IMG/VR virus record: IMGVR_UViG_3300046385_000126
Span: 64,001 to 101,004 of that record
Length of the DNA stretch: 37,004 bases
Source of the DNA: a virus
Direction: 5' to 3' (one strand)
Of this stretch, positions 4,416 through 23,853 are shown in pieces. Numbering within the stretch: position 1 is the first letter of the stretch; the number at the start of each line of letters is the position of its first letter. The notes below the pieces were generated by a model. That model was not told where the DNA came from and did not search any database. It was given only the letters and a program-made list of their open reading frames with translations. A program made the translations under genes and the position numbers.

Positions 4416-7400
4416 ATGCCATTAGAAAACACACTTAGCGCTAGCCCATATTTTGACGATTATGATCAGGCTAAAGAATTTTATAAAGTTCTTTTTAAAC
4501 CTGGCGTTGCGTTACAAACGCGCGAGTTGAATCAGCTACAAAGCATTCTGCAAAACCAGATCGAGCGATTTGGTAACCATGTATTCAAGTCTGGCACCAT
4601 TATCAGTGGTGTCAACTTTTCATACATCCCAACATACACATACGTCAAGATTCTTGACACAGAGACTAGCGGCACACCGTCTCTTCCATCTTCATATGTT
4701 GACTACTTCGTCAAGAGTGATCTAAACCTGACTGCTCGTATCGTCAATTATGAAGATGGTTTGGAATCAAAATCTCCTGATTTGAAGACATTGTATCTTC
4801 AATATACTAACAGCTCACAACCTGACACTGCTAATGGTAATGCGATCTATACTACATTTAGACCTGATCAGTTGTTGACTGTTTATAGCAAAGACAACAA
4901 CCTATTCAGCGTCACTGTTAATAACGGTGGTCTGGGCTTTTCTAACGCAGATGCTGTTGTAGTAACGAGTGCGATCACCATTACTGGCAACACTATTGCG
5001 TTTGCAAATGGTGAGACTATTACACAGTCTACTACCGGTGCAAAAGCTGTTATTGCTTCCGTCAATACAACCGCAATTGCAAACACAACAATTTTGAAAA
5101 TTAAGCCACGCACGGCTGATTTGACTAACACATCGGTAAGTGCTAATGCGTGGACAATGTCGACTGGTTACAACGTTGTCGGTGGAACTAGTGGTGCAAC
5201 AGCAAACGTTGTGTCGCTGATTGGTAGTGGCGCAGTTGGTCTGGTTTCTACAGATACACAGGGTATTGTTCAGACACTTACACTAGCTGATGGTGGTGCT
5301 GGTTATGACTTCCTTCCTCACGTTACCCTAAAAACAGCTAACTCGACAGCAACTGTTAATAACCTTGACTTGCAACCAAGCAACTTCAAGGCTCTGATCA
5401 CTGTTGCTAATACCAGCACAAACGCCATCGGAACTGGATATGCATTTGGTGTGTCCGAAGGTATCATCTACCAAAAAGGTTACTTCCTTAAAGTAGAACC
5501 ACAAGTTATCACAGTTGATAAGTTTACAACTGCACCAGATAGCGTTGCTGTTGGTTTTAAGACTGTTGAAACCATTGTTGATGCTTATACAGATGAGTCT
5601 CTGTATGATAACGCTGCTAACACAACCAATTATACAGCTCCTGGTGCTGATCGTCTAACGCTTACTCCTGTTCTTACGTTGATGACGACAGCAGAAGCTC
5701 AGGCTAACGTAGACTTCTTTGCATTGGCTGAATGGAAAGAAGGGTTCCCATATAAGGAAAACCGTGTTTCTGTATACTCTAACCTTGCTGATGAACTAGC
5801 GCGCCGTACACGTGAGGCACAAGGTAACTTTGTTGTTGATTCATTCCAGGTTGGTACGAAAGAAAAGGCAACGCCAAACACATCAACTGTACAGACAGTT
5901 ATTGACCCTGGTCTGGCATACATCTCTGGTTACCGTGTTCAGACATCGTACAACAACTACCTTGATGTTGATCGCTCCACAACGAAGACTTCGTTGAGCA
6001 ACCAAAGTATTACTGTTAACTACGGTAACTACGTCAAGGTCAAAGAACTAGCTGGCTTGTTTAACTTCAAAGCTGGTGATACAGTCAGTCTTTATGATAC
6101 AGCAAAACAATATGTGTCAGCATCTACTATTAGTACAAACGGATCAATTGCACCTGCAGGTACCCAAATTGGTACTGCCCGCATTCGTTCACTAGTTATT
6201 GATTCTGGCAGCCCAGGCACACCAGACTGTGTATACAGAATGTATTTGTTTGATGTTGTAATGACTCCTGGACACTCTTTCCGTCAAGCGAGAAGCATAT
6301 TTTTCGATGGTACTGTTCAAGACGGTATCGCTGATATTGCTCTTGAGTATGATGCTACAACATCAGCAAACCTAGCATTCTTGAATGATGTGAATAACGA
6401 TCAGTTGATATTCAATATCGGTCAACCAGCGGTCGCTACACTAAGCGATCTTTCATATCAATATAGAACAGTATCCGATGCTACACTACAACTAACGTCT
6501 GGTGGCCAAGTTGTTATTGGTCCGTTGGGATCAGGCCTATCATTCCCATATAGTGATGGCACGCTTTCTTCAACACAGGAACGCGACTTCATCGTATTCC
6601 CAATTGCAAACACGCAAGCTGCAGCAAATATTGGTGGGTCATTAGCAGTCAATGCAAGCAACACTATCATTGTTGGAACAAGCACGACGTTTGCAAGTGA
6701 TCTACGTGTTGGTGACCATGTTAAGTTACTTGCCGCTAACGGATCCAGCATTGTTAGACAGGTTTCTTCAATTGCAAATAACACATACCTGACGCTGACG
6801 TCTAACGCATCTGTTTCGTTTACAGCAAACGCTGTAATATTCTATCCCGCTCTTTATCCGTTGGATGTTGAAAACAGAAGCGACCGCACCATCACTGTTT
6901 CTGCTAGTAGCAAGACTGTTACCATCAACATCAACAAAACGCTGGCCGGAACCGCTAACGTTATTGCTGTTTACAATATTAAGTCTACCGCAGCAACTCC
7001 TGTTACTAAAACAATCAAACGCGATATCTTTGTTAAGCTACACACAAGCAACAACGTGTCAAGCAACACCGGTCCTTGGGCACTTGGTCTTCCTGGTGCC
7101 GCTCGATTGAAGAAGGTGTTTTTGGGTACAGATGCTGCTGTTAACACATCGAGCACAGATGTAACAAAATACTTCTATGTAGATTCTGGTGATGATGAAA
7201 ACGCATACCGCACTTCTCGTTTGGTATTGAACACTGGTGCAAATCTTGCTGTTAATACCAACCAGTATATCATGGCTCAGCTTGATGTATTTACAAATAA
7301 CGGTCAAGAAGGTTTCTTTACTGTTGGTTCGTACAACATCGATGATACGAAGACTCTGGCAGCTTCAAACACCACAATTAACACACTGGAAATTCCAGAA

Positions 7401-9155
7401 ACGATCACAAACAAAGGCATTTATTATGACCAGCGTGATGTTATCGATTTCCGTCCATACGGTACTGCAACCGCTAACCTATCCACGACTGTGGCTGGCG
7501 CGACTGTCAATCCTGCAAATACGTTTGCATTGAGTGGTGACGACCAGTTCTTCCCTGTACCAGACTCCGCTGTTACGTTTGGTGTTGAATACTACAACAC
7601 ACGTATGGACCGCGTCGTTGTACGTCAAGACTCCACGTTCGAAGTGTTGAGTGGCGTGTCAACACTATCACAGCCTGTTCCACCCCGCGCACCAGCTGAT
7701 GCTGTTACGTTGGCGTTGTTGACTATTCCTCCATATCCTTCACTACCATCTGCATTCAACTCTACCACACTAGAGTTTGTTTCAAAAGGAGTTGGTAGCT
7801 CTAAAGGACCAATTTCAAAACGAACTGCTGATTATAAGATTAACACACGTGCATCCAAAGGTACACGTAACGAGCAGCCTCGTAGATACACTATGCAGGA
7901 TCTTGGCGCTATTGAGCGTCGACTTACCAACGTAGAGTATGCTGTCTCTTTGAGTCAAGTAGAATCTGCAATTAAAGATGTGGTTATCCCTAGCGGAATT
8001 ACACCAACAACCAGCCGCTTCAAGAATGGCTTCTTCGTTGAGCCTTTTGATGACTACACAAAAGTCGATCTATCGAGCCGCGAATATGCTGCAACAATTG
8101 ACCAGCAAAAAGGGTTTTTGAAACCACCTACAAAGCAGATTAACTTTGAAGCATGCTTTGATTTGACAGATACTGCTACAGCTAACTCCGTTGTGACTGG
8201 TAATACCCTGATGTTGCCTTTTACTGATGAGTTGCTGATCGATCAAAGTATCAAGAGCTCTGTCGTAGGGGTTGACGGTCACCGCATTCAATTCAACGGC
8301 GAAGGTACAATTACTCCTTCCTCCTTCTCCATTCAGACACGTGGCGAAGTCACGGTTGTGGAGGATCCGCCACCACTTCCACCACCTAACTATGGTGGTC
8401 CAGGCGATGATAGTGGATTCTTCGAGGGTCTAGTTGAGGGTGTGGGTGATTTGGTTGACGGTATTCTTTCGCCTATATCTGATGGCGATTGCTTCACACC
8501 TGAAACAATCATCTTTATGGCTGATGGATCATCCAAGCAAATTAAAGACGTTAAGGCTGGTGAACGTGTACTTGCATCTGATATGAAAACAGTCAACACT
8601 GTTCGTTATATTGAGATGTTGCGTAAGACGTCATGGGATTCATTGTATTCTCCATCACCATCGTTTAAGCCTTTTGTCACTGTTAACCACCCACTGATCA
8701 TTAACGGTGAATTGGTGTCTGTTGACCCTAATGAGACATACATGAGATATCCATGGTTAGGTATGTCCGTCAGCATTGATAAATATACCGATCACGTTGA
8801 AATGATTCCATCTGATAACCGACCAGTATATAACTTGTGGGTTGACGGGGACGGTACATATATTGTTAACGGCTTTGGTACCACATCGATCGTCGGTCAC
8901 GGCTACGCGTTGGCTGGTGCAGTTCTACGTGGCAGTATCAATCACGATCAAACGATGGAGATTATGCGTAGATTCACCTCAGATGGCCGCGAACTACAAT
9001 ATGGGTCATACATCGTAAACAAGGTGCTTGATAAACTAAACATTAAATGGGTAAATGACATGCTATTTGCAGTTGCCTTGCAGGACGGTGTTGCTAAGAA
9101 GGCACTATTCGGCATCACCAGATTCATTGGTACACTAGCCTGGATGGCAAAGTAA
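4416..9155 (+). CDS. Giant baseplate/tail structural protein with DUF4815-like N-terminus and C-terminal Hint domain
   Basis: 1579 aa. Residues ~8-65 carry the pattern of DUF4815 (YFDDYDQAKEFYKVLFKPG, then ALQTRELNQLQSILQNQIE and SGTIISG), typical of large tail-tip proteins in marine myoviruses. The middle is beta-rich with modules GGLGF, GETITQSTTGA, GTSGATA and GGAGY. A Pro-rich linker at ~1315-1330 precedes a Hint (Hedgehog/intein) domain: C1359 in DCFTPETIIFMADGS, a block-B T-x-x-H (TVNH, H1425), and a terminal VYNLWVDGDGTYIVNG block. About 84 residues follow H1495. The usual final His-Asn of inteins is replaced by His-Gly. Known Hint domains cleave or splice proteins autocatalytically; whether this one is active is unknown. 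The upstream and downstream neighbours are also virion proteins. Confidence 0.75.
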   Translation: MPLENTLSASPYFDDYDQAKEFYKVLFKPGVALQTRELNQLQSILQNQIERFGNHVFKSGTIISGVNFSYIPTYTYVKILDTETSGTPSLPSSYVDYFVKSDLNLTARIVNYEDGLESKSPDLKTLYLQYTNSSQPDTANGNAIYTTFRPDQLLTVYSKDNNLFSVTVNNGGLGFSNADAVVVTSAITITGNTIAFANGETITQSTTGAKAVIASVNTTAIANTTILKIKPRTADLTNTSVSANAWTMSTGYNVVGGTSGATANVVSLIGSGAVGLVSTDTQGIVQTLTLADGGAGYDFLPHVTLKTANSTATVNNLDLQPSNFKALITVANTSTNAIGTGYAFGVSEGIIYQKGYFLKVEPQVITVDKFTTAPDSVAVGFKTVETIVDAYTDESLYDNAANTTNYTAPGADRLTLTPVLTLMTTAEAQANVDFFALAEWKEGFPYKENRVSVYSNLADELARRTREAQGNFVVDSFQVGTKEKATPNTSTVQTVIDPGLAYISGYRVQTSYNNYLDVDRSTTKTSLSNQSITVNYGNYVKVKELAGLFNFKAGDTVSLYDTAKQYVSASTISTNGSIAPAGTQIGTARIRSLVIDSGSPGTPDCVYRMYLFDVVMTPGHSFRQARSIFFDGTVQDGIADIALEYDATTSANLAFLNDVNNDQLIFNIGQPAVATLSDLSYQYRTVSDATLQLTSGGQVVIGPLGSGLSFPYSDGTLSSTQERDFIVFPIANTQAAANIGGSLAVNASNTIIVGTSTTFASDLRVGDHVKLLAANGSSIVRQVSSIANNTYLTLTSNASVSFTANAVIFYPALYPLDVENRSDRTITVSASSKTVTININKTLAGTANVIAVYNIKSTAATPVTKTIKRDIFVKLHTSNNVSSNTGPWALGLPGAARLKKVFLGTDAAVNTSSTDVTKYFYVDSGDDENAYRTSRLVLNTGANLAVNTNQYIMAQLDVFTNNGQEGFFTVGSYNIDDTKTLAASNTTINTLEIPETITNKGIYYDQRDVIDFRPYGTATANLSTTVAGATVNPANTFALSGDDQFFPVPDSAVTFGVEYYNTRMDRVVVRQDSTFEVLSGVSTLSQPVPPRAPADAVTLALLTIPPYPSLPSAFNSTTLEFVSKGVGSSKGPISKRTADYKINTRASKGTRNEQPRRYTMQDLGAIERRLTNVEYAVSLSQVESAIKDVVIPSGITPTTSRFKNGFFVEPFDDYTKVDLSSREYAATIDQQKGFLKPPTKQINFEACFDLTDTATANSVVTGNTLMLPFTDELLIDQSIKSSVVGVDGHRIQFNGEGTITPSSFSIQTRGEVTVVEDPPPLPPPNYGGPGDDSGFFEGLVEGVGDLVDGILSPISDGDCFTPETIIFMADGSSKQIKDVKAGERVLASDMKTVNTVRYIEMLRKTSWDSLYSPSPSFKPFVTVNHPLIINGELVSVDPNETYMRYPWLGMSVSIDKYTDHVEMIPSDNRPVYNLWVDGDGTYIVNGFGTTSIVGHGYALAGAVLRGSINHDQTMEIMRRFTSDGRELQYGSYIVNKVLDKLNIKWVNDMLFAVALQDGVAKKALFGITRFIGTLAWMAK
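8490..8903 (+). other. Hint (intein/Hedgehog-type) autoprocessing domain within the 1579-aa protein
   Basis: The region codes for residues ~1359-1496. Visible hallmarks are Cys1 in GDCFTPETIIFMADGSSKQI (block A), AGERVLASD soon after, TVNHPLII (block B, H1425), and VYNLWVDGDGTYIVNG (block F). Block G is atypical: the sequence reads IVGHG instead of the His-Asn that supports C-terminal cleavage in inteins. There is no room for a homing endonuclease. The domain is at the C-terminal side of the protein, which fits a cleavage-type Hint domain better than a splicing intein. Confidence 0.7.
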
Positions 9156-13173: not shown

Positions 13174-14148
13174 ATGGCTGCAGGCAATACACAGTTTAAA
13201 GCGGAGAATGGACTCTTTGTACAGGGGACTGCTAACGTTGCTGGAGATTTGAAGGTCGATGGCAACCTTCTTGTCACAGGTAACATTGTGTCTTCAGGTA
13301 CCGCTGCTGGTGACTTCATTCCTTTAAACAATACATACTCACTTGGAAATACCACATCCCGATGGTCTTTGTTGGGTGTAGATGGCAATTTCTCCGGCAA
13401 CCTAACTGTAAGCACAGTTACTACTCTCAGCGATACTGCATCATCCAACCTTATTCCAACAGTAAACAACGCACCTTTAGGATCAGCAACACGTCGTTGG
13501 GCGATTACTGCTAATACAGGTGACTTTCTAAACATTACGACGACACAGGCAATTGCTACTGTTAACCTAACATCAAACGGTACATTGTCTGCAGGTGTGT
13601 TGGTTGCAAATGCTACTCATGTCGTTATAACAAACGGAACACTGAGTGTAAATACTGGTTCGAAGACATCGATCTCTGCAACTGGCAACTCCACTTATAG
13701 TAGCCTTTCCCTTAATAACGATGTAACATCTATCGGCGGCAATGTTGCTTTTGATACAGATCTTGTTGTTATCGATGCGGTCAACAACCGTATTGGTTTA
13801 AAAGCAACGACACTATCCTCTAGTGCTCTTGCTACAATCACTGGTAACGTTGAATTCAGCACTGCAAACACAGGTATTCGTTTACAGACATCAAACGCAA
13901 CGCATAATGCATCCATTGTTATGGTTGCGGCCAACACCAGTAACAGTCGCTTGACATTCTCAACATATGATACATCTAATTCTACAGTAGAGAACGGTGG
14001 TTTCGTATTTGGTGGTATGGTGAATAGCACATCAACACAGACGTTGTTATCATTTAGTAACGCTTCTATCAAATATAAAACTGGTAACGTCGCTCACGCA
14101 GGCAACTTCGGGATTTACGATGTAAACGGCACACGCTTAGGACCATAA
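13174..14148 (+). CDS. Tail fibre-like protein with LG...RW modules
   Basis: 324 aa, beta-rich and Asn/Thr/Ser-rich. The N-terminus (NTQFKAENGLFVQGTANVAG) is followed by a DLKVDGNLLVTGNI strand repeat. Two copies of a module with the core LG-x-x-x-x-RW occur at ~55-65 (LGNTTSRW) and ~103-110 (LGSATRRW); the first leads into DGNFSGNLTVS. The same module appears in the fibre at 24452-26398. The C-terminal half has GTLSVNTGSKTSISATGNS and NNRIGLKATTL stretches. It lies 8 bases after the previous fibre gene and 1 base before the next gene. It is likely one of several fibres or fibre segments; there is no chaperone-like or enzymatic motif. Confidence 0.65.
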   Translation: MAAGNTQFKAENGLFVQGTANVAGDLKVDGNLLVTGNIVSSGTAAGDFIPLNNTYSLGNTTSRWSLLGVDGNFSGNLTVSTVTTLSDTASSNLIPTVNNAPLGSATRRWAITANTGDFLNITTTQAIATVNLTSNGTLSAGVLVANATHVVITNGTLSVNTGSKTSISATGNSTYSSLSLNNDVTSIGGNVAFDTDLVVIDAVNNRIGLKATTLSSSALATITGNVEFSTANTGIRLQTSNATHNASIVMVAANTSNSRLTFSTYDTSNSTVENGGFVFGGMVNSTSTQTLLSFSNASIKYKTGNVAHAGNFGIYDVNGTRLGP

Positions 14149-14149
14149 A

Positions 14150-15649
14150 ATGGCAAGACCACTGCGCGCGGTATACGCGAACACCACATACAGTAACGGT
14201 GTGCGGGAGATGTCTGATAGCGAACTTAATGATCTCGTCGCTCCTCTGATACTAACTTATGTAACATCGAACCCTAGTGTTGCGTATAGTACATCGCTGC
14301 GTATCAATACAGCAGGATTATACGATGTCAATGTAGGGGTTACAAACGATACTCGCAGCGATATTGTCGGTGCACACCCAGCATCAAACTCTACCATAAG
14401 CACATACACTTTATATCAGAGTGCGCGACCAATGGCTTTGAGCCTGAGTGCTCGCCCTGTTGCATATGTTCAGGTCGGTGATGAGTGGCAAATCAAATCG
14501 ATGTCTGATCAAGAAATGATTGATCAGGTTGTGCCTTCTATTGTTCAGACCATGATCACTGGTGGCCAAGGTGCTTATTATATTGGACCAACATCAAGTG
14601 GAGCTCCTGTAGGGGGAACGTGGACGTCGTATGGAAATATGACCGACACATATTATGTTAACAGCACACTAACAACAGAACAGTATACGTTATGGCAGCG
14701 TACGTCTGGAACAACTGCTGGTACTATTAGACCTCTTAAAGTTGATTTGTCTGGCAACCTAGTCGAAATGACTAACGCTGATATAACCCAGCTGTACCAG
14801 GCTGTCGGTGAGTATATTCGTACAACGGGCATTGGTCAATACGTCATCCAACCAATTGCGCCGTCTACAGGTACATGGATGCAGCGTGGATACTTTACAA
14901 ATACGGTAAACAACTTACAAGACACCGCTTATAACGGTTCATACATTGGGTCGTTTACGAGTCCATATACACGTGCGTTTACAGGCACGTATAATAGTGC
15001 ATTCACAGGAAATTACACTGGTGCATATTCGCGTATTTTTACAGGCGCATATGCTGGTGGGTATAATAACACGTTTACAGGGTTATACAACCAGGCATTT
15101 ACTGGTGCGTTCAGTGGTGGATATGTAGGTACGTTCTCTGGAATTTATTCAAAGCTGTTCACAGGCGCGTATACAGGAGTGTATGCGGGTGCGTATAATG
15201 GCTTTTTCACTGGGACGTATATTACTAATATTTCTAAATCGTACCAGAACCCATTCTCTGGTGTGTGGTATACTGGTTCTTACGCCAATTATTATAGTGG
15301 TAGTTATGCAAGCGCGTTTACAGGTTTGTATACTGGTGCATACTCAGGATCATACCAAGGCAATTTCACTGGCGTATACAATACAACATTTACCGGCGTG
15401 TATAACCGATCGTTTACAGGATCATTCACAGGAATATACACAGGAACTTTTAGTGGTTTATACACTGGTGGATACACCAGTGCATTTACAGGAATATATG
15501 CTGGAGCATATACAGGTGCATTTAGCGGCGCATATAGCGGAGCGTTTACTGGACTATATAACACTTCATTCACCGGAGCCTACACTGGTTTGACTGTACT
15601 AAATACAACATCGACCACAGTATACAAACTGTGGGTTAGAACAGCCTAA
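14150..15649 (+). CDS. Tetrapeptide (aromatic-x-Gly-x) repeat protein, smaller paralogue
   Basis: 499 aa. Residues 1-260 hold tandem modules of ~100 residues. Each has an acidic-helical start (MSDSELNDLV, MSDQEMIDQV or MTNADITQLY), a GxGxYxIxP stretch, a G-T-W strand and a T-LWQRT strand. From residue 261 to ~481 the protein is made of ~55 tetrads of the form [YF]-x-G-x (FTGA, YTGA, YNQA, YSGG), in constant register except for one extra Trp in FSGVWYTG. It ends with the cap YTGLTVLNTTSTTVYKLWVRTA. The cap resembles the end of an N-terminal module, so the array looks inserted into the last module. The 1703-aa protein downstream has the same architecture. Function unknown; a fibre or adhesin is inferred from position. 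Confidence 0.75.
   Translation: MARPLRAVYANTTYSNGVREMSDSELNDLVAPLILTYVTSNPSVAYSTSLRINTAGLYDVNVGVTNDTRSDIVGAHPASNSTISTYTLYQSARPMALSLSARPVAYVQVGDEWQIKSMSDQEMIDQVVPSIVQTMITGGQGAYYIGPTSSGAPVGGTWTSYGNMTDTYYVNSTLTTEQYTLWQRTSGTTAGTIRPLKVDLSGNLVEMTNADITQLYQAVGEYIRTTGIGQYVIQPIAPSTGTWMQRGYFTNTVNNLQDTAYNGSYIGSFTSPYTRAFTGTYNSAFTGNYTGAYSRIFTGAYAGGYNNTFTGLYNQAFTGAFSGGYVGTFSGIYSKLFTGAYTGVYAGAYNGFFTGTYITNISKSYQNPFSGVWYTGSYANYYSGSYASAFTGLYTGAYSGSYQGNFTGVYNTTFTGVYNRSFTGSFTGIYTGTFSGLYTGGYTSAFTGIYAGAYTGAFSGAYSGAFTGLYNTSFTGAYTGLTVLNTTSTTVYKLWVRTA
14930..15592 (+). repeat. 12-bp-period coding array encoding ~55 aromatic-x-Gly-x tetrads
   Basis: Starting at the Tyr codon at 14930, a Tyr or Phe codon recurs every 12 bases up to the YTGL near 15581. 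The only phase shift is one inserted Trp codon (in FSGVWYTG, around 15265) and one slot in which Ile replaces the aromatic residue. Third codon positions vary freely (GGT/GGA/GGC, TAT/TAC, GCA/GCG/GCT/GCC), so the periodicity is at protein level. Confidence 0.9.
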
Positions 15650-15668: not shown

Positions 15669-18600
15669 ATGCCAGTAAAACCATTAAAATACATTGAAAT
15701 AAGCGGATCACCATCAACTCAGATTATGTCCAACACGGACATTACTGACTATGTGGCAAAATTAATAGGTACCGAATTTGCTAGCACCACAGGTGTTGGT
15801 TCCCTCGGTGTTGGTTCGCTGGCCAATGGAACATCTATTGGTACATGGGTGGACACGTACTATCCAAACGCAATCGGCGACCATCCCATTGACCCTGCTG
15901 CGGTCACAGTTTCAAACACAACACTTTATCAAGACGTCTCTAACGGATCGTTGACGGGTATTTTTTCACGCCCTGTTGGTTGGGATACTTCAAACAACGT
16001 ACCACAACTCTTATCCGATTCCGACATCGACACAAGCATCACGTCTGTTATTGCTAACTATGTTGTTAATGGTGGTGTTGGTTCATATGTCCTACAACCA
16101 ACTGCTCCAGCAACAGGAACATGGGTTTCACGTGGAACACTTACAAACACACAAGCACCTAGTGTAACCAACACGACTACGTTGTGGCAGAAGACAGCTG
16201 AATCTACAGGATCTGCTGTACGTTTGTTGAAACTGGCAAACGGTGGCTTCCAGCAGTTTTCTGATGCTGATATTCGAAACCTGACGTTTAAACTCCGCAA
16301 TTACATTGTTAATAGCGGCATTGGCAAATATGTCCTTTCAACGACCACGCCAGTAACTCCTGGTACATGGGTGCAAGCAGGCACTGGTTTTGACGATATA
16401 CGTCTATCACTTGAAGATGGATTTTACGCTGGTGCATATAACAGTACGTTCACTGGCGGTTATACTGCTACATACTCTGGTAATTACAACAACACCTTCT
16501 CTAGTGCATTTACCAGCACATATTCATCTTCTTATTCAGGTGCATATAACTCGGCATTTAGCAGAGCCTACACAAGTGTGTATACAGGCGCCTTTACCGG
16601 ACAATATAACCAAGCGTTCACTGGTGCGTTCAGTAGAGCGTTTACCGGCGCCTTTACCGGACAATATAACCAAGCGTTTACTGGTAACTTTACTGGTGTA
16701 TATGCTAACGCGTTCACGGGACAGTACTCTGGTAATTATGTTGGCGCATTCAGTACAGTTTTTAGCGGTGCATATACTGGTGCATACAATCAGACATTTA
16801 CCGGGTCGTACATTGGTACGTACCTAAGCAACTATACAGGAGCTTTCAGTGGAGCCTATGCCTCTACGTTCACTGGAACTTTTACTGGCGCATACACAGC
16901 AGCTTACAGTGCTGTGTTCACTGGTCAATACTCTGGTGGCTACACAAGTGCATTTACTGGTAGCTATACTTCAGCATATACGACTGCATACACGGGTGCC
17001 TACACAGGAGCATATTCGAACGTATTTTCTGGTGCCTACACAGGCGGTTATACTACAACGTTTACTGGTCTGTATTCAGGCGCATATTCAAGAACGTTCA
17101 CTGGCGCATATGCTGGCTCTTATACGGGCGTTTTTAATCAGACATTCACTGGTTCGTACCTAGGTGGTTATGTAGGATCATTTACCGGCGCATATGCTGG
17201 TGCTTACTCACGTGTGTTTTCAGGATCCTACACTGGCATATATTCTGGTGGATATACTGGTGCGTTTTCTGGATCATATACTGGTATCTACACTGCTGCA
17301 TATACAGGTTTATATTCAGGTGGGTACACAGGAGCGTTTACTGGGATCTACACTGGTGCATATACTGGTGCATTCAATCAAAGCTTTAGTGGTTTGTATT
17401 CCGGTTCATATACAAGTGCGTTTACTGGTCTGTATTCCGGTACATACACAAGTGCATTCTCAGGATCATATACGGGCGCGTATACAGGCGCATATAGCCA
17501 AGTGTTCACTGGTTCATATTCTGGTGGATATGTTGGCACATTTACAGGCGCGTATGCTGGTGCGTATTCACGTGTATTCACAGGATCGTACACTGGTGCA
17601 TATACAGGAACATACAACCAAACGTTTACTGGATCATATTCTGGTGGGTACGTAGGATCATTTACTGGTGCTTATGCCGGCGCTTATTCGCGTGTGTTTA
17701 CTGGATCATACACAGGTGCATACACGGGCATTTATAACCAAACCTTTACTGGATCTTATTCTGGTGGGTACGTAGGATCATTTACTGGTGCTTATGCTGG
17801 TGCTTATTCTCGCGTTTTCACTGGATCGTATTCTGGTATCTACACCGGCGTATATAATCAGACGTTTACTGGATCATATTCTGGTGGGTATGTTGGTTCA
17901 TTTACTGGTGCTTATGCTGGCGCTTATTCACGAGTATTCACTGGCTCTTACACAGGCGCATACACAGGCGTATACAATCAGACATTTACTGGATCGTATT
18001 CTGGTGGATACACTCGAGCGTTTACTGGCGCATATGTTGGTGCTTACTCGCGTGTGTTCTCAGGATCATATACTGGCCTCTACACAGGATTATATACTGG
18101 CATATACACTGGACTATATTCTGGTGGATATGTAGGATCATTTACAGGTCTATACTCCGGCACATATTCAAGAATATTCTCTGGATCTTACACAGGTTTA
18201 TACTCTGGTGTGTATCAGAATACATTTACTGGCTTGTACTCTGGTGTGTATCAAAGCACATTTACAGGTGCATACTCTGGTAACTACACTCGTGCATTTA
18301 CTGGTAGTTATGCTGGTAACTATATTGCATCATATGCTGGTGCATATGCTGGTACGTACAATACAGGTTATATTGGTTATTATGCACCCGGCGGTGCTGT
18401 GTACTACACTGGTTTATATACTGGCTTTTATTCTGCATATTATGCTGGTAACTATATAAACCCTTTTAATGGAGCTACGTATACTGGTGGCTATTTGGGA
18501 TCACGAGCTCGTAGTTTTGCTGGTGGATATACAGCTGGCGCTGGTTATGCTGGAACATACACAGGTTTCTATGCTGCTGGCTATCTCGGGTCCTATCTTG

Positions 18601-20780
18601 GATACTATGGTGGCTCACGTGCCCGAGCATATAGAAACCCATATAATGCTGTATGGTACACGGGTTACTATGCTGCTGGTTACGCTGGTTGGTATTCTGG
18701 CTATTATGCTGGCTCACGTGCACGTAGTTATACTGGATACTACGCTGGATCGCGCGCGCTTACATTTACAAGAGCGTTTACTGGTAGCTACACTGGATAC
18801 TACAACAGAACATTTACTGGTGCTTATAGCGGCGCCTATAACGGTGCATTCACGGGAATTTATTCTGGTGGATATATTGGATCCTTTACTGGCGCATATT
18901 CCGGTGGCTACATTGGCTCATTTACAGGGGCATATGCCGGTGCGTATGCTGGCAGCTACCAAGGAAACTTTACGGGTGCGTACTCTGGCGCATACAATAA
19001 CACCTTCACTGGCATTTACTCTGGTGGATATGCAGGAGCGTACGCTGGTGCATACGCTGGCGCGTATGTTGGAAACTACACTGGATCGTTTAGCGGTATA
19101 TACAGTGGTGCATACAACCAAACGTTCACAGGAGCATATTCAGGTGGTTATGTAGGTGCGTTCACTGGTGTTTGGGCGGGTGCATATGCTGGTAATTACT
19201 CCGGATCATTCAGTGGATTGTATAGTGGAGCATACAACCAAACATTTACAGGGGCATATTCTGGTGGATATGTAGGCGCATTTACCGGTGCCTGGGCTGG
19301 TGCTTATGCGGGCAATTACTCCGGATCATTTAGCGGTCTATACTCTGGTGCGTATAACAACACCTTCACCGGTGCATACTCAGGTGGATACGTTGGTGCG
19401 TTTACCGGTGTTTGGGCAGGGGCATATGCAGGTAATTACTCTGGATCATTCAGCGGCCTGTTTTCAGGTGCATACAACCAAACATTCACTGGAGCTTATT
19501 CAGGTGGATACGTAGGTGCATTTACCGGAGTTTGGGCAGGAGCATATGCAGGTAATTACTCCGGTTCGTTTAGTGGTTTATACAGCGGAGCATATAACCA
19601 AACGTTTACTGGTGCATATGCTGGTGGTTATGTTGGTACATTCTCCGGTATTTACTCTGGCAACTTCGTTGGATCGTATTCGAATTCGTTCACTGGCGCT
19701 TTTGCTGGAGCATACAATCAAGCGTTCACTGGCGCTTTCGCTGGTAACTACACAGGCGTATTCTCAGGAATATATTCTGGTGGGTACTCTGGATCATACA
19801 ACCAGGTATTCTCTGGTGCATATTCTGGTACCTACAATACAGGATACTCTGGCGCATATGTTGGAAATTACAACAGCGTTTTCACTGGCGCTTTTGCTGG
19901 CGCATATGTAGGCAACTACTCAGGTTCCTTTACCGGATTGTACAGCGGAGCATACACTCAAACATTTACAGGTGCATATGCAGGTGGATACACTGGTGCA
20001 TTCACAGGGGTTTGGACTGGATTCTACTCTGGCGGTTATGTTGGAACGTTTACTGGTGCATATGCTGGTGGTTATAATTCCACATTCTCCGGCATATATG
20101 TCGGTGGTTATGCTAACACGTTCTCTGGTGTTTATAGCGGATCTTACAACACAACCTACACTGCAGTATATTCAGGTGCATATAACCAAACATTCTCTGG
20201 TGCATACTCTGGTGGTTATACTGGATCGTTTAGTACAGCATACACTGGTGGATATTCATCAGGGTTTACTGGTGCGTTTACTGGCCTATACAACCAAACG
20301 TTCACCGGTAACTTCTCTGGTGCATATGCAGGTGGATACACCGGCACATTCTCTGGCGCATATGTCGGTGGGTATGGCAACACATTCTCTCGCACATTTA
20401 CAGGAATATACACCGGCGTGTATAGTAACGTATTTACAGGCGTTTATAACCAAGCATTCACTAGCCAATTTACCGGTGTATACAATCAAGCATTTACTGG
20501 TGCGTTTAGTAGTGCATTTACAGGTCAGTTCACTGGTCAATATGCGCAACAATTTACAAGCGTATACACTGCTGCATACACAGGCGCGTTTACAGGATCA
20601 TATACATCAGCATATACTGGCCAGTATACTCAAATGTTTACAGGAACATTTACCGGCGTTTATTCCGCAACTTACACCGGTCTATATACAAGAGCATATG
20701 TAGGAACATACACAGGACTGACAATTGTTTCTACACCACAAACAGTTGCGACACTTAAACTTTGGGTACGGACATCATGA
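15669..20780 (+). CDS. Giant tetrapeptide-repeat virion protein (aromatic-x-Gly-x array)
   Basis: 1703 aa. Residues 1-252 contain modules homologous to those of the upstream 499-aa protein: [SN]D-x-D-I starts, G-[IV]-G-[KS]-YVL, TGTWVSRG, TLWQKT and RLLKL. From residue 253 to ~1684 there are ~356 tetrads [YF]-[TSANV]-[GRQN]-x, most often FTGA, YTGA, YSGG and YNQT. In-register aromatic residues occur every four positions throughout. A denser Tyr-rich section with four SRA[RL] motifs at ~905-1035 interrupts the pattern; its three small insertions (1+2+1 residues) restore the register. Two families of 40-residue super-repeats lie on either side. The C-terminal cap TGLTIV...LKLWVRTS matches the paralogue. 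There is no signal peptide or enzyme motif. The gene overlaps the next start (ATGA). It may be an extended adhesin, fibre or decoration; this is inference. Confidence 0.75.
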   Translation: MPVKPLKYIEISGSPSTQIMSNTDITDYVAKLIGTEFASTTGVGSLGVGSLANGTSIGTWVDTYYPNAIGDHPIDPAAVTVSNTTLYQDVSNGSLTGIFSRPVGWDTSNNVPQLLSDSDIDTSITSVIANYVVNGGVGSYVLQPTAPATGTWVSRGTLTNTQAPSVTNTTTLWQKTAESTGSAVRLLKLANGGFQQFSDADIRNLTFKLRNYIVNSGIGKYVLSTTTPVTPGTWVQAGTGFDDIRLSLEDGFYAGAYNSTFTGGYTATYSGNYNNTFSSAFTSTYSSSYSGAYNSAFSRAYTSVYTGAFTGQYNQAFTGAFSRAFTGAFTGQYNQAFTGNFTGVYANAFTGQYSGNYVGAFSTVFSGAYTGAYNQTFTGSYIGTYLSNYTGAFSGAYASTFTGTFTGAYTAAYSAVFTGQYSGGYTSAFTGSYTSAYTTAYTGAYTGAYSNVFSGAYTGGYTTTFTGLYSGAYSRTFTGAYAGSYTGVFNQTFTGSYLGGYVGSFTGAYAGAYSRVFSGSYTGIYSGGYTGAFSGSYTGIYTAAYTGLYSGGYTGAFTGIYTGAYTGAFNQSFSGLYSGSYTSAFTGLYSGTYTSAFSGSYTGAYTGAYSQVFTGSYSGGYVGTFTGAYAGAYSRVFTGSYTGAYTGTYNQTFTGSYSGGYVGSFTGAYAGAYSRVFTGSYTGAYTGIYNQTFTGSYSGGYVGSFTGAYAGAYSRVFTGSYSGIYTGVYNQTFTGSYSGGYVGSFTGAYAGAYSRVFTGSYTGAYTGVYNQTFTGSYSGGYTRAFTGAYVGAYSRVFSGSYTGLYTGLYTGIYTGLYSGGYVGSFTGLYSGTYSRIFSGSYTGLYSGVYQNTFTGLYSGVYQSTFTGAYSGNYTRAFTGSYAGNYIASYAGAYAGTYNTGYIGYYAPGGAVYYTGLYTGFYSAYYAGNYINPFNGATYTGGYLGSRARSFAGGYTAGAGYAGTYTGFYAAGYLGSYLGYYGGSRARAYRNPYNAVWYTGYYAAGYAGWYSGYYAGSRARSYTGYYAGSRALTFTRAFTGSYTGYYNRTFTGAYSGAYNGAFTGIYSGGYIGSFTGAYSGGYIGSFTGAYAGAYAGSYQGNFTGAYSGAYNNTFTGIYSGGYAGAYAGAYAGAYVGNYTGSFSGIYSGAYNQTFTGAYSGGYVGAFTGVWAGAYAGNYSGSFSGLYSGAYNQTFTGAYSGGYVGAFTGAWAGAYAGNYSGSFSGLYSGAYNNTFTGAYSGGYVGAFTGVWAGAYAGNYSGSFSGLFSGAYNQTFTGAYSGGYVGAFTGVWAGAYAGNYSGSFSGLYSGAYNQTFTGAYAGGYVGTFSGIYSGNFVGSYSNSFTGAFAGAYNQAFTGAFAGNYTGVFSGIYSGGYSGSYNQVFSGAYSGTYNTGYSGAYVGNYNSVFTGAFAGAYVGNYSGSFTGLYSGAYTQTFTGAYAGGYTGAFTGVWTGFYSGGYVGTFTGAYAGGYNSTFSGIYVGGYANTFSGVYSGSYNTTYTAVYSGAYNQTFSGAYSGGYTGSFSTAYTGGYSSGFTGAFTGLYNQTFTGNFSGAYAGGYTGTFSGAYVGGYGNTFSRTFTGIYTGVYSNVFTGVYNQAFTSQFTGVYNQAFTGAFSSAFTGQFTGQYAQQFTSVYTAAYTGAFTGSYTSAYTGQYTQMFTGTFTGVYSATYTGLYTRAYVGTYTGLTIVSTPQTVATLKLWVRTS
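17493..18092 (+). repeat. 120-bp super-repeat family A (10 tetrads per unit)
   Basis: Units marked by [YF][NS]Q[TSV] recur at 17493, 17613, 17733, 17853 and 17973. The order is YNQT FTGS YSGG YVGS FTGA, then YAGA YSRV FTGS YTGA YTG[TIV]. Decayed copies in the same 120-bp phase extend upstream (markers at 17133 and 17373). Adjacent copies share near-identical DNA, for example about 37 bases starting at 17641 and again at 17761. Confidence 0.85.
18993..19712 (+). repeat. 120-bp super-repeat family B (10 tetrads per unit, Trp-containing)
   Basis: Units start at 18993, 19113, 19233, 19353, 19473 and 19593, with a further marker at 19713. The order is YNQT FTGA YSGG YVGA FTGV, then WAGA YAGN YSGS FSGL YSGA. 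Four copies place Trp in the same tetrad. The unit length, ten tetrads, equals that of family A, and the first four tetrads are nearly the same. Confidence 0.85.
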
Positions 20781-21217
20781 AGAGAACTATTAAAAATCCA
20801 CACTGGACAAACAACGCACGTACTGTCCTTTCTGCTGAATTCCATTATGAAGATGGGCGCGTGCTTACAGCTACGATCAGTGATTCAGATAAGGGCAATC
20901 CAGATCTGGTTGAAATTTTGGCGAACTTTACGGCTGAGGAGCTAGAAGCAAACACTGCTAGAGCTATCAAGCGCCAAAGTCAGGAAATGGAATCCAGACG
21001 CCGCCAAGAAGAAGCAATGGCAGAAAAAGCACTGCAAGAGGAACTGTTTGCAGTTAAACTAAAAGCTTTCGAGCTAGATGTTGTCAAAGGTACAACTAAC
21101 CGTGCCTTGAAATCACAAATTCGCCGAGCAAAGAGTGTATTTGAGGTGTACGCATACACAGCAGCCTTGATTCTTGACAACCAACAAAACCCACCAACTG
21201 ATTCGACTGCGGAGTAA
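20777..21217 (+). CDS. Small coiled-coil protein following the giant repeat gene
   Basis: 146 aa from the ATG at 20777, which overlaps the stop of the giant repeat gene (ATGA). This is preferred to an in-frame TTG at 20762 that lies inside the upstream gene. Residues ~1-45 are a small beta segment (VLSAEFHYEDGRVLTATISD, then GNPDLVEI). Residues ~50-110 are a charged helix likely to form a coiled coil (QEMESRRRQEEAMAEKALQE), and the C-terminus is acidic. I recall similar small proteins next to fibre genes in marine myoviruses. Translational coupling to the repeat gene fits an assembly or adaptor role, but no homologue with known function is recognised. Confidence 0.6.
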   Translation: MKRTIKNPHWTNNARTVLSAEFHYEDGRVLTATISDSDKGNPDLVEILANFTAEELEANTARAIKRQSQEMESRRRQEEAMAEKALQEELFAVKLKAFELDVVKGTTNRALKSQIRRAKSVFEVYAYTAALILDNQQNPPTDSTAE

Positions 21218-21220
21218 ATA

Positions 21221-21931
21221 ATGGATATTGATAATGGATTTCTTCTCGTGGCATCGGTCACGGAAGATTATGTGAAGTCTGCAAATTATTCGGCTGATAG
21301 CATCCGCGATTATTATCCAGATGCTCATATTACTTTATTCGTGCCGCCTGCACTTCGTCACTTGGCAGATGATTCTGCATTTGATTTGATTGTATCAGAC
21401 CCAGATGTACCAAATCACACACGGACAAAATTGTATGCTTTGTCTCGTACTCCATATAAGAATTTAACTGTATATGTGGATGCTGACATGGAATGCATGC
21501 ACGAAGACGTTCAAAACATTTGGAACGAAATGCCCGACGACTGTGATATCTTGATCACCAAGATCAGACCATACAATGGTAAGATTTCAAAATGGGCAAC
21601 AGGTGAAATGATCTACCATGGTGGTTTCTTCATGTACCGCACCAATCCAAAGACAATTGATTTTATGGATCGTTGGTGGGTGGACTACCATAAACAACGT
21701 GCAGAGCCATGGCCATATGATGAAAGCGAGATTCCAGTCACACTAAGACCATGGGACCAGTTTACATTTTGGAAGCTGCTAAATATTGACAAACTAGATA
21801 CAAATGTTCAAGTGTTTAAAGACGATGCTCGATGGAACTTTGTTAACGGTTATCGCTTGAACGAAAACAAAGACCCAATCGTTTTCTACCACCACACTAT
21901 TCCATCCAGACGCGAGGACACTAAAAAATGA
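21221..21931 (+). CDS. Glycosyltransferase-like protein (GT-A type fold predicted)
   Basis: 236 aa, preceded by a GGAG at about 21211. The sequence reads as a short GT-A nucleotide-sugar transferase: an N-terminal strand FLLVASVTEDY, a helix containing YSADSIRDYYPDAHITLFVP, the strand NLTVYVDADME with a D-x-D motif (D87-A-D89, metal/nucleotide binding in GT-A enzymes), HGGFFMYRTN at ~133, PWDQFTFWKLL at ~177, and IVFYHH (H224-H225) near the C-terminus, where GT-A enzymes often keep a metal-binding His. The donor and acceptor cannot be told. It sits between the repeat-protein operon and a 2OG-oxygenase-like gene, overlapping the latter by 4 bases, so modification of a virion protein or host surface glycan is possible. 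Confidence 0.6.
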   Translation: MDIDNGFLLVASVTEDYVKSANYSADSIRDYYPDAHITLFVPPALRHLADDSAFDLIVSDPDVPNHTRTKLYALSRTPYKNLTVYVDADMECMHEDVQNIWNEMPDDCDILITKIRPYNGKISKWATGEMIYHGGFFMYRTNPKTIDFMDRWWVDYHKQRAEPWPYDESEIPVTLRPWDQFTFWKLLNIDKLDTNVQVFKDDARWNFVNGYRLNENKDPIVFYHHTIPSRREDTKK

Positions 21932-22548
21932 AATCAATTGATATTGTAAACCTAGAATTAAAAAACATCCTTGACGAGTTTATGGCTGTCCTGCAGAACT
22001 GCGATCGCTCGGAATATCCGTATGGAAATTGGACAGATATTACTCCTGACTATGCATGTGGTATGGAATACCTAGAACATATGCAGGGTAAAAAGGTTGA
22101 TGGCTTTCCGGAAAAAACACTAGGGGTTGATCTATCACGCTTTACTCCACCACAAGAGTCGTTGCGCAAAGCTCTTACCAAACTCGATCATGATTTGATT
22201 GCATGGTCCGGCTCTCGAAACAATGCGGTCAAGATGTTGTATCCTAAGGGTGGTTACATGGGCTGGCACCACAATGCAAACGCAGCTGGTTACAATATTC
22301 TGTTGTCCTGGTCCAAAGATGGTAAAGGCTACTTCCGGTACCAGGATCCAATCACAAAGGAAATTGTTACAATGCAGGATACGCCTGGTTGGACATGCAA
22401 GGTTGGGTACTACGGACCATGGCATGAAAAAGACCGTATTTACTGGCACTGTGCTAATGCAGCACACGAAGAAAGATTCACGCTAGGCTACATTATTCCT
22501 CATGAAGGAATGTGGCAAGATATGTGTGACGATATTCAGAGCAAATAA
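21928..22548 (+). CDS. 2-oxoglutarate/Fe(II) oxygenase-like protein
   Basis: 206 aa, start overlapping the upstream stop (ATGA). The C-terminal two-thirds resembles the small 2OG-Fe(II) oxygenases of marine myoviruses: a KMLYPKGGYMGWHHNANAAG segment (~102-121, H114/H115), a YFRYQD strand (~135-140), and IYWHCANAAHEERFTLGYI at ~171-189, containing a distal His (H174) and an Arg (R183) of the type that binds 2OG. The canonical H-x-D of the facial triad reads H-x-N/H-N-A-N here, so metal binding is uncertain. Family members hydroxylate proteins or small molecules. The substrate is unknown; the nearest large proteins are the Tyr/Gly repeat proteins and fibres. Confidence 0.6.
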   Translation: MKSIDIVNLELKNILDEFMAVLQNCDRSEYPYGNWTDITPDYACGMEYLEHMQGKKVDGFPEKTLGVDLSRFTPPQESLRKALTKLDHDLIAWSGSRNNAVKMLYPKGGYMGWHHNANAAGYNILLSWSKDGKGYFRYQDPITKEIVTMQDTPGWTCKVGYYGPWHEKDRIYWHCANAAHEERFTLGYIIPHEGMWQDMCDDIQSK

Positions 22549-23273
22549 TAATCTGAATAAGACTGATAATCCCGTGGCGTTGTTGGACCATTCAACAGTA
22601 CCACGGGAATTTTTTTGACTATTTCAATAAACTTGCTTGGGCGGTATCCAAAATCAACTGGATCGTGTTGCTCATTCATATTGTGATCGACGCCGTACAT
22701 ATGTGAATAGAACTTCATCGCTGGAAAGTATTCTGTAGATGATCCTGCTGAGTGGTGTTCATAAAACATAAACGAATCCATTCCCCAATAGTACTTGGTC
22801 ATAAACTTTTCAGGGTCTTTGATAAAATGATCCCATATTGGTCTGGCTAGTGGCGACCTCCATGTCATACAGCTGCTGTTGAAAGGGTGGTGGTGCTCAA
22901 TAGTATGGTATTGATGTTTTTTACGCCACACAGCATTGATAACTGTAAGAGCTCCACTGTTTGTATCAATGAGGTCGTCAATGTTTGATTTAATAACAAG
23001 GTCTAAATCGAAGTACATACGTGGACCATTGGGTAGTTGGCTATCAAACTGCTCACTGAACATGAACAGCTTGTTATACACAATTACATCGAGCCCGTGA
23101 TCCACATAGTCAATACACGCTATGTTTTTATCAACACCAGTCTTGTCGTCTGTGTAACAAAAGAAGTTGAACGGCCTACTGATATTCTTCTGACACATTC
23201 TAAATAGGTTGTTGACCATAGATGTGTCATATTTACGGCCAAGTTTAACGCATATAATGTTTAGAGATTCCAT
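22536..23273 (-). CDS. Glycosyltransferase-like protein, the only minus-strand gene
   Basis: 245 aa. It starts at the CAT at 23271-23273, one base from the ATG of the divergent methyltransferase-like gene, and its last 13 bases overlap the end of the oxygenase-like gene. The N-terminus (LNIICVKLGRKY, then PFNFFCYTDD) and the strand RMYFDLDLVIKSNIDDL with a D-x-D motif (D89-L-D91) fit a GT-A glycosyltransferase-like fold. WGMDSFMFYEH and the C-terminal VVLLNGPTTPRDYQ add to the similarity with phage GT-like proteins. Donor and acceptor are unknown. Its opposite orientation makes it look like a separately acquired cassette gene. It is not obviously close in sequence to the plus-strand GT-like gene. 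Confidence 0.6.
   Translation of the reverse strand: MESLNIICVKLGRKYDTSMVNNLFRMCQKNISRPFNFFCYTDDKTGVDKNIACIDYVDHGLDVIVYNKLFMFSEQFDSQLPNGPRMYFDLDLVIKSNIDDLIDTNSGALTVINAVWRKKHQYHTIEHHHPFNSSCMTWRSPLARPIWDHFIKDPEKFMTKYYWGMDSFMFYEHHSAGSSTEYFPAMKFYSHMYGVDHNMNEQHDPVDFGYRPSKFIEIVKKIPVVLLNGPTTPRDYQSYSDYYLL
22568..22616 (+). terminator. Intrinsic terminator inside the 3' coding end of the minus-strand gene
   Basis: A CCCGTGG (22571-22577) / CCACGGG (22601-22607) stem contains a second inner stem TGTTG/CAACA and is followed by seven T (22610-22616). It lies ~20 bases after the oxygenase-like stop and would end plus-strand transcripts. Because it is within the minus-strand gene, it also codes for amino acids there. 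Confidence 0.75.
23253..23258 (+). promoter_or_regulatory. Possible sigma70-type -10 box for the methyltransferase-like gene
   Basis: A TATAAT hexamer lies 16 bases upstream of the ATG at 23275, inside the minus-strand gene. There is no good -35 match (best TTTACG at 23232), so this could be chance in AT-rich sequence. It is noted because the upstream terminator leaves the next gene without an obvious promoter. Confidence 0.25.
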
Positions 23274-23274
23274 A

Positions 23275-23853
23275 ATGTATCAGTATTTAACTTCTTTGTC
23301 AGGTGTTTTGAGATCTGGTGCAAATGTGGATGATATTGCAGACTCGTTAAGCGATACACAATATAGATCAAAATTATGGCTCGTTGAAACGTTGGCAAAG
23401 CAATCGTTCCCTGCAAATCCCAGAGTACTTATTCTCGGTGGTTGGTATGGTAGTTATTTGGTGCCAATGCTTAACGAGCACATAAAACCATCTCACATAT
23501 TCTTGAACGATATTAATGTGGATGTGTTGAAAGTAGCCAAAGCTCTTCACAAGAATACACCGAACTGCTCTGTAGAACACTTCGATGCAACTTACCAATA
23601 TCACAGGTACGATGTTGATATTGTGATCAATACATCATGTGAGCATATGAGCTATTATGGATATATGCTTGGGGAACCTTCAAATGTTCTTTACGTGTTG
23701 CAATCATGTGATAACAATAATGATCCCGGCCATGTCAACACAGCATCGAGTACAGATGATTTTGCGGCTAAATTGAACTTGAAACAAATAGTTTTCGCTG
23801 GAAGACAGGCGCTTGGACACAAAAACAGGTTTATGATCATTGGTCACAACTAG
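23275..23853 (+). CDS. SAM-dependent methyltransferase-like protein
   Basis: 192 aa from the ATG at 23275. An in-frame TTG at 23209 is rejected because it would extend into the divergent gene and weaken the family match. Motif I is RVLILGGWYGSYLVPML at ~50-66 (Gly-rich SAM loop), an acidic end of strand beta-2 is IFLNDIN (D79), and VDIVINTSCEHM follows at ~124-135. The C-terminal pattern HVNTASSTDDFAAKLNL...RFMIIG matches small class I methyltransferases that I recall from marine T4-like phages. The substrate is unknown. It diverges from the GT-like gene with a 1-base gap and is followed by a T4-type late promoter at 23866. It could act on host or virion molecules. Confidence 0.6.
   Translation: MYQYLTSLSGVLRSGANVDDIADSLSDTQYRSKLWLVETLAKQSFPANPRVLILGGWYGSYLVPMLNEHIKPSHIFLNDINVDVLKVAKALHKNTPNCSVEHFDATYQYHRYDVDIVINTSCEHMSYYGYMLGEPSNVLYVLQSCDNNNDPGHVNTASSTDDFAAKLNLKQIVFAGRQALGHKNRFMIIGHN

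Follow-up and report, generated by a model that had tools for sequence, protein, structure and literature searches.

What does a virus build with a protein in which an aromatic-x-Gly-x tetrad recurs from residue 253 to residue 1684? The gene that raises this question lies within the 37,004-nucleotide stretch analyzed here (the window), positions 64,001 to 101,004 of IMG/VR record IMGVR_UViG_3300046385_000126, a 101-kb T4-like fragment. The original prediction, made from the sequence alone, described one array held in a single register, could name no domain for it, and offered a beta-solenoid or a polyglycine-II-like bundle as possible folds of a surface adhesin or fiber. We consider it very probable that the protein is a phage tail fiber whose shaft is one giant out-and-back beta-hairpin needle with a distal tip. 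Below, P0001 designates the long array protein and P0002 a short paralog encoded just upstream, a second, shorter array that the original prediction did not mention. The two genes are laid out as follows.

14150-15649, plus strand: short paralog P0002, 499 aa, with the same modules and the same cap as P0001 and an NPF..YTG tip
15669-20780, plus strand: long array protein P0001, 1703 aa by ORF translation, comprising N-terminal modules, N-arm, tip region, C-arm, and C-terminal cap strand
15669-16424, plus strand: N-terminal modules of P0001, residues 1-252, with relatives in 47 array loci
16425-18383, plus strand: N-arm, 164 uninterrupted aromatic-x-Gly-x tetrads, residues 253-905
18384-18764, plus strand: central irregular region and putative tip, residues 906-1032
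18765-20720, plus strand: C-arm, an unbroken run of 163 tetrads (residues 1033-1681) that mirrors the N-arm in antiparallel orientation
20721-20777, plus strand: C-terminal cap strand (..TLKLWVRTS), sharing its motif with strand 2 of the module-2 hairpin (TLWQRT)

Residues 253 to 1684 of P0001 make up 358 tetrads, with Tyr, Phe, or Trp at position 1 in 340 and Gly at position 3 in 254. The longest array run in 1000 shuffles of the same residues was 13 tetrads, compared to 164 and 163 in P0001, which leaves no doubt that the repeat is real. The claim of a single register was right in that the register, after shifting within a center of about 127 residues, is restored beyond it, but the array is not uniform: it consists of two equal, mirror-image arms around an irregular center. 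That center carries the quasi-palindromic motifs NPF..SRAR and SRAR..NPY and includes the mirror axis, near residue 969 (nucleotide ~18573). The P0002 array likewise has two arms, of about 27 to 29 tetrads each.

The array genes lie between the gp8/DUF4815 baseplate genes and gp13/14/15-17-18-20, and the array gene occupies the T4-like tail-fiber position, in agreement with the earlier assignment to surface adhesins or fibers. We sought psbA in the virus record and found none; this marker therefore gives no sign of a cyanobacterial host. A search of viral metagenomes, as had been proposed, was productive: a DNA pattern for six tetrads matched at least 120 stretches with the tetrad array in IMG/VR, and at least 81 ORFs among the pattern matches listed have the same C-terminal cap, ..(L)(W/Y)xRxA. 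Among 50,697 annotated phage records, a full-length relative was present only in C48C1 (Kyanoviridae), where it has 3347 aa. PHROGs and Pfam contain no model for the array family, a cellular search with the module found no relative, and the array sequence gave only subthreshold, low-complexity glycine-zipper matches to Pfam, PHROG, and PDB. Foldseek with the full model of a short relative, L018, returned no match at an E value of ≤0.001 in PDB or BFVD. The view that no domain could be named is borne out: the array protein is covered by none of the families in Pfam, PHROG, PDB, or BFVD. The open-access papers searched gave no description of the array; one may exist elsewhere.

Immediately behind the array gene lies a set of genes that recurs with it.

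20777-21217, plus strand: 146-aa conserved cassette protein, present in 58 of 76 array loci; its gene overlaps the stop codon of the array gene (ATGA)
21221-21931, plus strand: GT-A/GT8-like glycosyltransferase with an invariant DxD (D87, D89), in 55 of 76 array loci
21928-22548, plus strand: 2OG-Fe(II)-oxygenase-like protein (double-stranded beta-helix), in 50 of 76 array loci
22536-23273, minus strand: second glycosyltransferase (phrog_1962), with relatives in 29 array loci

The first glycosyltransferase has the DxD motif and the GT-A N-terminal half, with D87 and D89 invariant in 50 sequences; its Pfam matches are below the cutoffs (Glyco_transf_8, up to 2e-4; Glycos_transf_2, up to 2e-3), and its PDB matches, to glycogenin, are weak (E value of 0.05). 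The oxygenase-like protein is predicted by AlphaFold2 to adopt a double-stranded beta-helix (pLDDT of 95), and Foldseek matched the model to AlkB, the viral collagen prolyl hydroxylase vCPH, and P4H with E values of 1.6e-4 to 4e-4 and a probability of 1.00, at TM scores of only 0.3 to 0.43. An alignment from which the GenBank phage row was left out has invariant H114-x-N116, H174, and R183, with Asn in place of the HxD/E carboxylate. The phrog_1962 gene overlaps a plus-strand ORF, 23209-23853, whose relatives occur in 16 array loci.

The most economical reading is that the cassette enzymes modify the fiber; the glycosyltransferase and the oxygenase-like protein would probably do so by hydroxylating and/or O-glycosylating Tyr or exposed Thr/Ser. 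That the two proteins instead have the host surface as their target (LPS or O-chain), and merely neighbor the fiber gene, is a live possibility, if a somewhat doubtful one. Action on the host envelope has been proposed for glycosyltransferases at the same genomic position in pelagimyophages, namely for the GT8 enzymes of the host-recognition clusters (PMC7029224). Linkage argues against it: the order of the cassette is conserved in 55 of 58 loci, with ATGA-type overlaps right behind the array gene; 125 of 142 loci recovered through searches with the enzyme (partner) genes carry the array gene; and each of the three partner genes has C48C1, the sole record with a full-length array protein, as its only match among the 50,697 annotated phage records. 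If the enzymes do modify the fiber, these loci point to a fiber-modification operon that hundreds of uncultured aquatic T4-like viruses carry but just one annotated phage record does; such an operon is probably widespread in nature and absent from model systems.

How the array is attached to the rest of the fiber can be read from the modules. In P0001 and in relatives with the same N-terminal modules, motifs follow the order ..(M)(S/T)DADI..GxYxL..P..GTWxxxG..DT, and the same modules in L018 were modeled by AlphaFold2 with a pLDDT of >90. Module 2 is a plain hairpin, GTW..(T)NT-turn-TxxLWQRT, whereas the last (third) module consists of a strand, GTW..DT, then the array, and then the second strand, (T)xxLWxRTA, which is the C-terminus. 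The array thus splits module 3 and amounts to an enormously extended hairpin loop that starts and ends at one place. Comparison of the modules and the strand order of the AlphaFold2 model both place the stem within a base domain that the C-terminus completes as the last strand. The model is a monomer of the 344-aa L018, standing in for the window protein, and it predicts strands 234-262/270-282 and 285-298/306-342 folded into one long hairpin, whose turn is no more than 3 residues from the mirror axis. The base of this hairpin was modeled with good confidence; confidence in the arms was below 50, as would be expected for a ribbon modeled alone.

Counted from the tip motif, the two arms have exactly the same number of residues in 14 of the 17 first-set members that have this motif near the middle, at lengths of 26 to 136 residues (26/26, 34/34, 38/38, 42/42, 50/50, 54/54, 66/66, 68/68, 74/74, 78/78, 86/86, and 136/136), and in 20 of the 27 second-set members with a single tip motif, at lengths reaching 180/180; in most of these members of both sets, the tip separates arms of equal length. 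Several relatives with interrupted arrays have palindromic interruptions, and hexad insertions, which shift the register by +2, are mirrored in L091, L039, and L004, with constant sums of 678, 696, and 732. Hypervariability was looked for at the tip, and since identity there (0.55) shows it to be no more variable than the arms (0.58), a receptor-binding tip gains no support from this quarter.

Tandem duplications also come in pairs, as two blocks in P0001 illustrate.

17452-18076, plus strand: N-arm tandem expansion with a 120-bp unit (10 tetrads), 5.2 copies
19083-19653, plus strand: C-arm tandem expansion with a 120-bp unit, 4.8 copies, mirroring the N-arm block in position

The overlap of the N-arm expansion with the mirrored C-arm expansion has a Jaccard index of 0.91 in P0001, and L015 behaves likewise. 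Blocks of equal period lie at mirror places in several other members; against a shift null for each protein, the significance of mirrored tandem blocks is modest (p values of 0.01 to 0.3). The units encoded by the paired 120-bp expansions differ in amino acids between the arms, so the matched growth did not arise by copying one arm into the other. Array length varies among close relatives, whose modules are about 86% identical. We propose that fiber length evolves by the duplication of tetrad blocks in both arms together, which would explain how a fiber can change length rapidly without breakage.

That the arms share levels is also indicated by the choice between Phe and Tyr. When the P0001 arms are read antiparallel, like residues (F:F or Y:Y) meet at 152 of 165 rungs (YY, 102; YF, 9; FY, 4; FF, 50), with p = 4.7e-28, a value that, like the others for single proteins, is inflated by F-Y-Y periodicity and shared ancestry. 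In P0002 all 25 mirror pairs are alike (15 YY and 10 FF, with zero mismatches), and mirrored agreement in the relatives L015 and L117 gave similarly inflated p values of 1e-12 and 7e-15. The mirror register, obtained by adding 4 to the sum of the first and last array aromatics, was fixed on the first set of relatives. When all registers were scanned in ten proteins, it was always the best antiparallel one; parallel alignments of the arms scored lower, or equal only with fewer pairs, at inconsistent shifts. In a further set of 77 proteins, fetched via the neighboring enzyme genes, the fixed register gave 284 FF pairs compared to 111 expected and 84.6% agreement, pooled figures whose p values are inflated by shared ancestry, while other registers gave 60 to 70% agreement. 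Position-3 pairs in which both residues are other than Gly are rarer at the mirror register (10 versus 30 expected, and 33 versus 48 in the new set); covariation of positions 2 and 4 in the new set has no peak there. The rule is weak or absent in several cyanophage-like members with RTR/STR motifs (L013, L016, L058, L100, and L007), only moderate in C48C1 (0.29), and displaced by one tetrad in the short paralog of L015. Pairing of the arms is its simplest cause, because an inverted DNA duplication cannot yield such a mirror in protein.

Taken at the level of sequence, the code establishes that the arms share levels, and no more than that is needed by the alternative in which level out-and-back arms pair between chains, as a domain-swapped trimer or dimer, or form two separate sheets. 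Contacts in the T4 gp37 needle are in part intersubunit, G921 meeting F970 of another chain (PMC6957217). The monomer model, however, gives an intrachain hairpin whose base is predicted with good confidence, and we regard this alternative as unlikely, though it keeps some weight.

A beta-solenoid or cross-beta stack that runs one way in coils of 12 residues (3 tetrads), with a Phe in every third tetrad marking one face, is very improbable. In its favor, register-1 Phe recurs at lags of 3 and 10 tetrads in several members, but a solenoid would have halves without a mirror relation and chain ends far apart. It predicts neither equal arms and mirrored insertions nor the mirror register that wins every scan nor an array whose two ends belong to one hairpin, and AlphaFold2 draws a hairpin. 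The folds first suggested, one-way solenoid and polyglycine-II bundle alike, are thus not supported; these same features favor an antiparallel hairpin. That the array is a product of low-complexity drift, a disordered, sticky Tyr/Gly protein that phase separates or aggregates, is scarcely credible, since disorder, for all the composition shared with sticky low-complexity segments and the low pLDDT of the arms, cannot exert selection for exactly equal arms, for F/Y identity in mirror order, or for paired duplications.

In the hairpin needle that we favor, the short turn of the third-module hairpin (GTW..DT / TLW.RT) would be replaced by the array, so that the chain would run out through 164 tetrads, turn at the tip, and return through 163 tetrads to the cap strand, with both array ends on the same base domain. 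At each level the arms would be antiparallel, aromatic facing like aromatic (F:F, Y:Y), and a bulky position-3 residue would tend to oppose a Gly of the other arm. Positions 1 and 3 (aromatic/Gly) would form the buried face of the ribbon, and positions 2 and 4 (T/S/A/N/V) its exposed face. Because the ribbon would have a single aromatic face, it would need partners, and we infer that three ribbons assemble into a trimer, their six strands enclosing an aromatic core, with aromatic faces inward and the tip outermost; all-F or all-Y levels in such a trimer would account for the like-with-like rule. The tip may offer a surface for receptor binding, like the tip of the T4 gp37 needle. With fully extended strands (656 residues at ~3.3 angstroms each), the P0001 fiber would measure about 0.2 micrometer. 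Such a rod would have a simple sequence code in which the strand partner of each residue can be read over more than 600 residues per arm, and it could serve as a model for designing beta-rods of a desired length.

The nearest analogy among known fibers is the needle of T4 gp37, in which domain D11 is inserted in D10, the stem comprises residues 882-931 and 960-1009, and the tip, residues 932-959, carries the receptor sites (PMC6957217). In the proposed architecture the array protein shares with it an elongated out-and-back stem of two equal arms that flank a tip, the insertion of this stem into a base domain closed by the C-terminal strand, glycines opposite aromatics, and a tail-fiber genomic role. 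The array differs in lacking HxH/iron repeats (no HxH motif was found in the arrays), in its strict aromatic-x-Gly-x tetrads, up to 164 per arm compared to 50 residues, and in its F/Y mirror code and paired duplication; we examined the T4 needle for an F/Y mirror and saw no clear signal. Comparison of the base modules with D10 and the gp12-like collar gave no Foldseek match and no Pfam collar or gp37 model above the cutoff. By analogy the array protein would work like the gp37 needle, a likeness of architecture that does not establish identity with gp37.

The C48C1 protein (OQ984149; WJE88074) is a true homolog, with the same N-terminal modules, tetrads, cap, and three downstream genes; it differs in that its tetrads are mixed with RTR/STR units, it has several inserted domains, and its mirror register is moderate. 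Globular domains lie between short tetrad arms in this relative (L126:10759-20802), as if it were a series of hairpins, each with a tip domain. The cyanophage TGN(V/L) fibers, such as S-RIM2 YP_007675557, share a strict four-residue hydrophobic-T-G-N repeat and a neighboring position before gp13, but they are aliphatic, with a different N-terminus and no cap, and mirrored arms were not seen; the likeness is compositional. The S-RIM2 protein (L128:1414-7152) is in principle a possible relative. Its PDB matches, to the gp5 beta-helix and unrelated proteins, were judged to reflect composition. The C-terminal triple-stranded beta-helix of T4 gp5 resembles the proposed needle in being a trimeric phage beta-fiber, with Val/Gly periodicity and a composition match to the TGN array; it differs in having an octad repeat and a one-way chain, and it has no sequence match to the aromatic array.

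We suggest, tentatively, that P0001 and its relatives could represent a previously undescribed fiber class, a length-scalable, self-complementary zipper of one chain with two mirror-coded arms that would have to grow by matched duplications, and with a surface hydroxylated and glycosylated by its own cassette.

Three minor observations concern neighboring and related ORFs. The 324-aa ORF immediately 5' of the array genes (13174-14148) has a weak bactofilin-like match. The 1579-aa DUF4815 fiber/baseplate protein (4416-9155) has a weak Hint-like stretch near its C-terminus, below the Pfam cutoff. A 2092-aa minus-strand ORF in a related locus (L072:5996) repeats every 29 residues, one more than seven tetrads; with this odd shift in register, the aromatic face would change sides at each unit.
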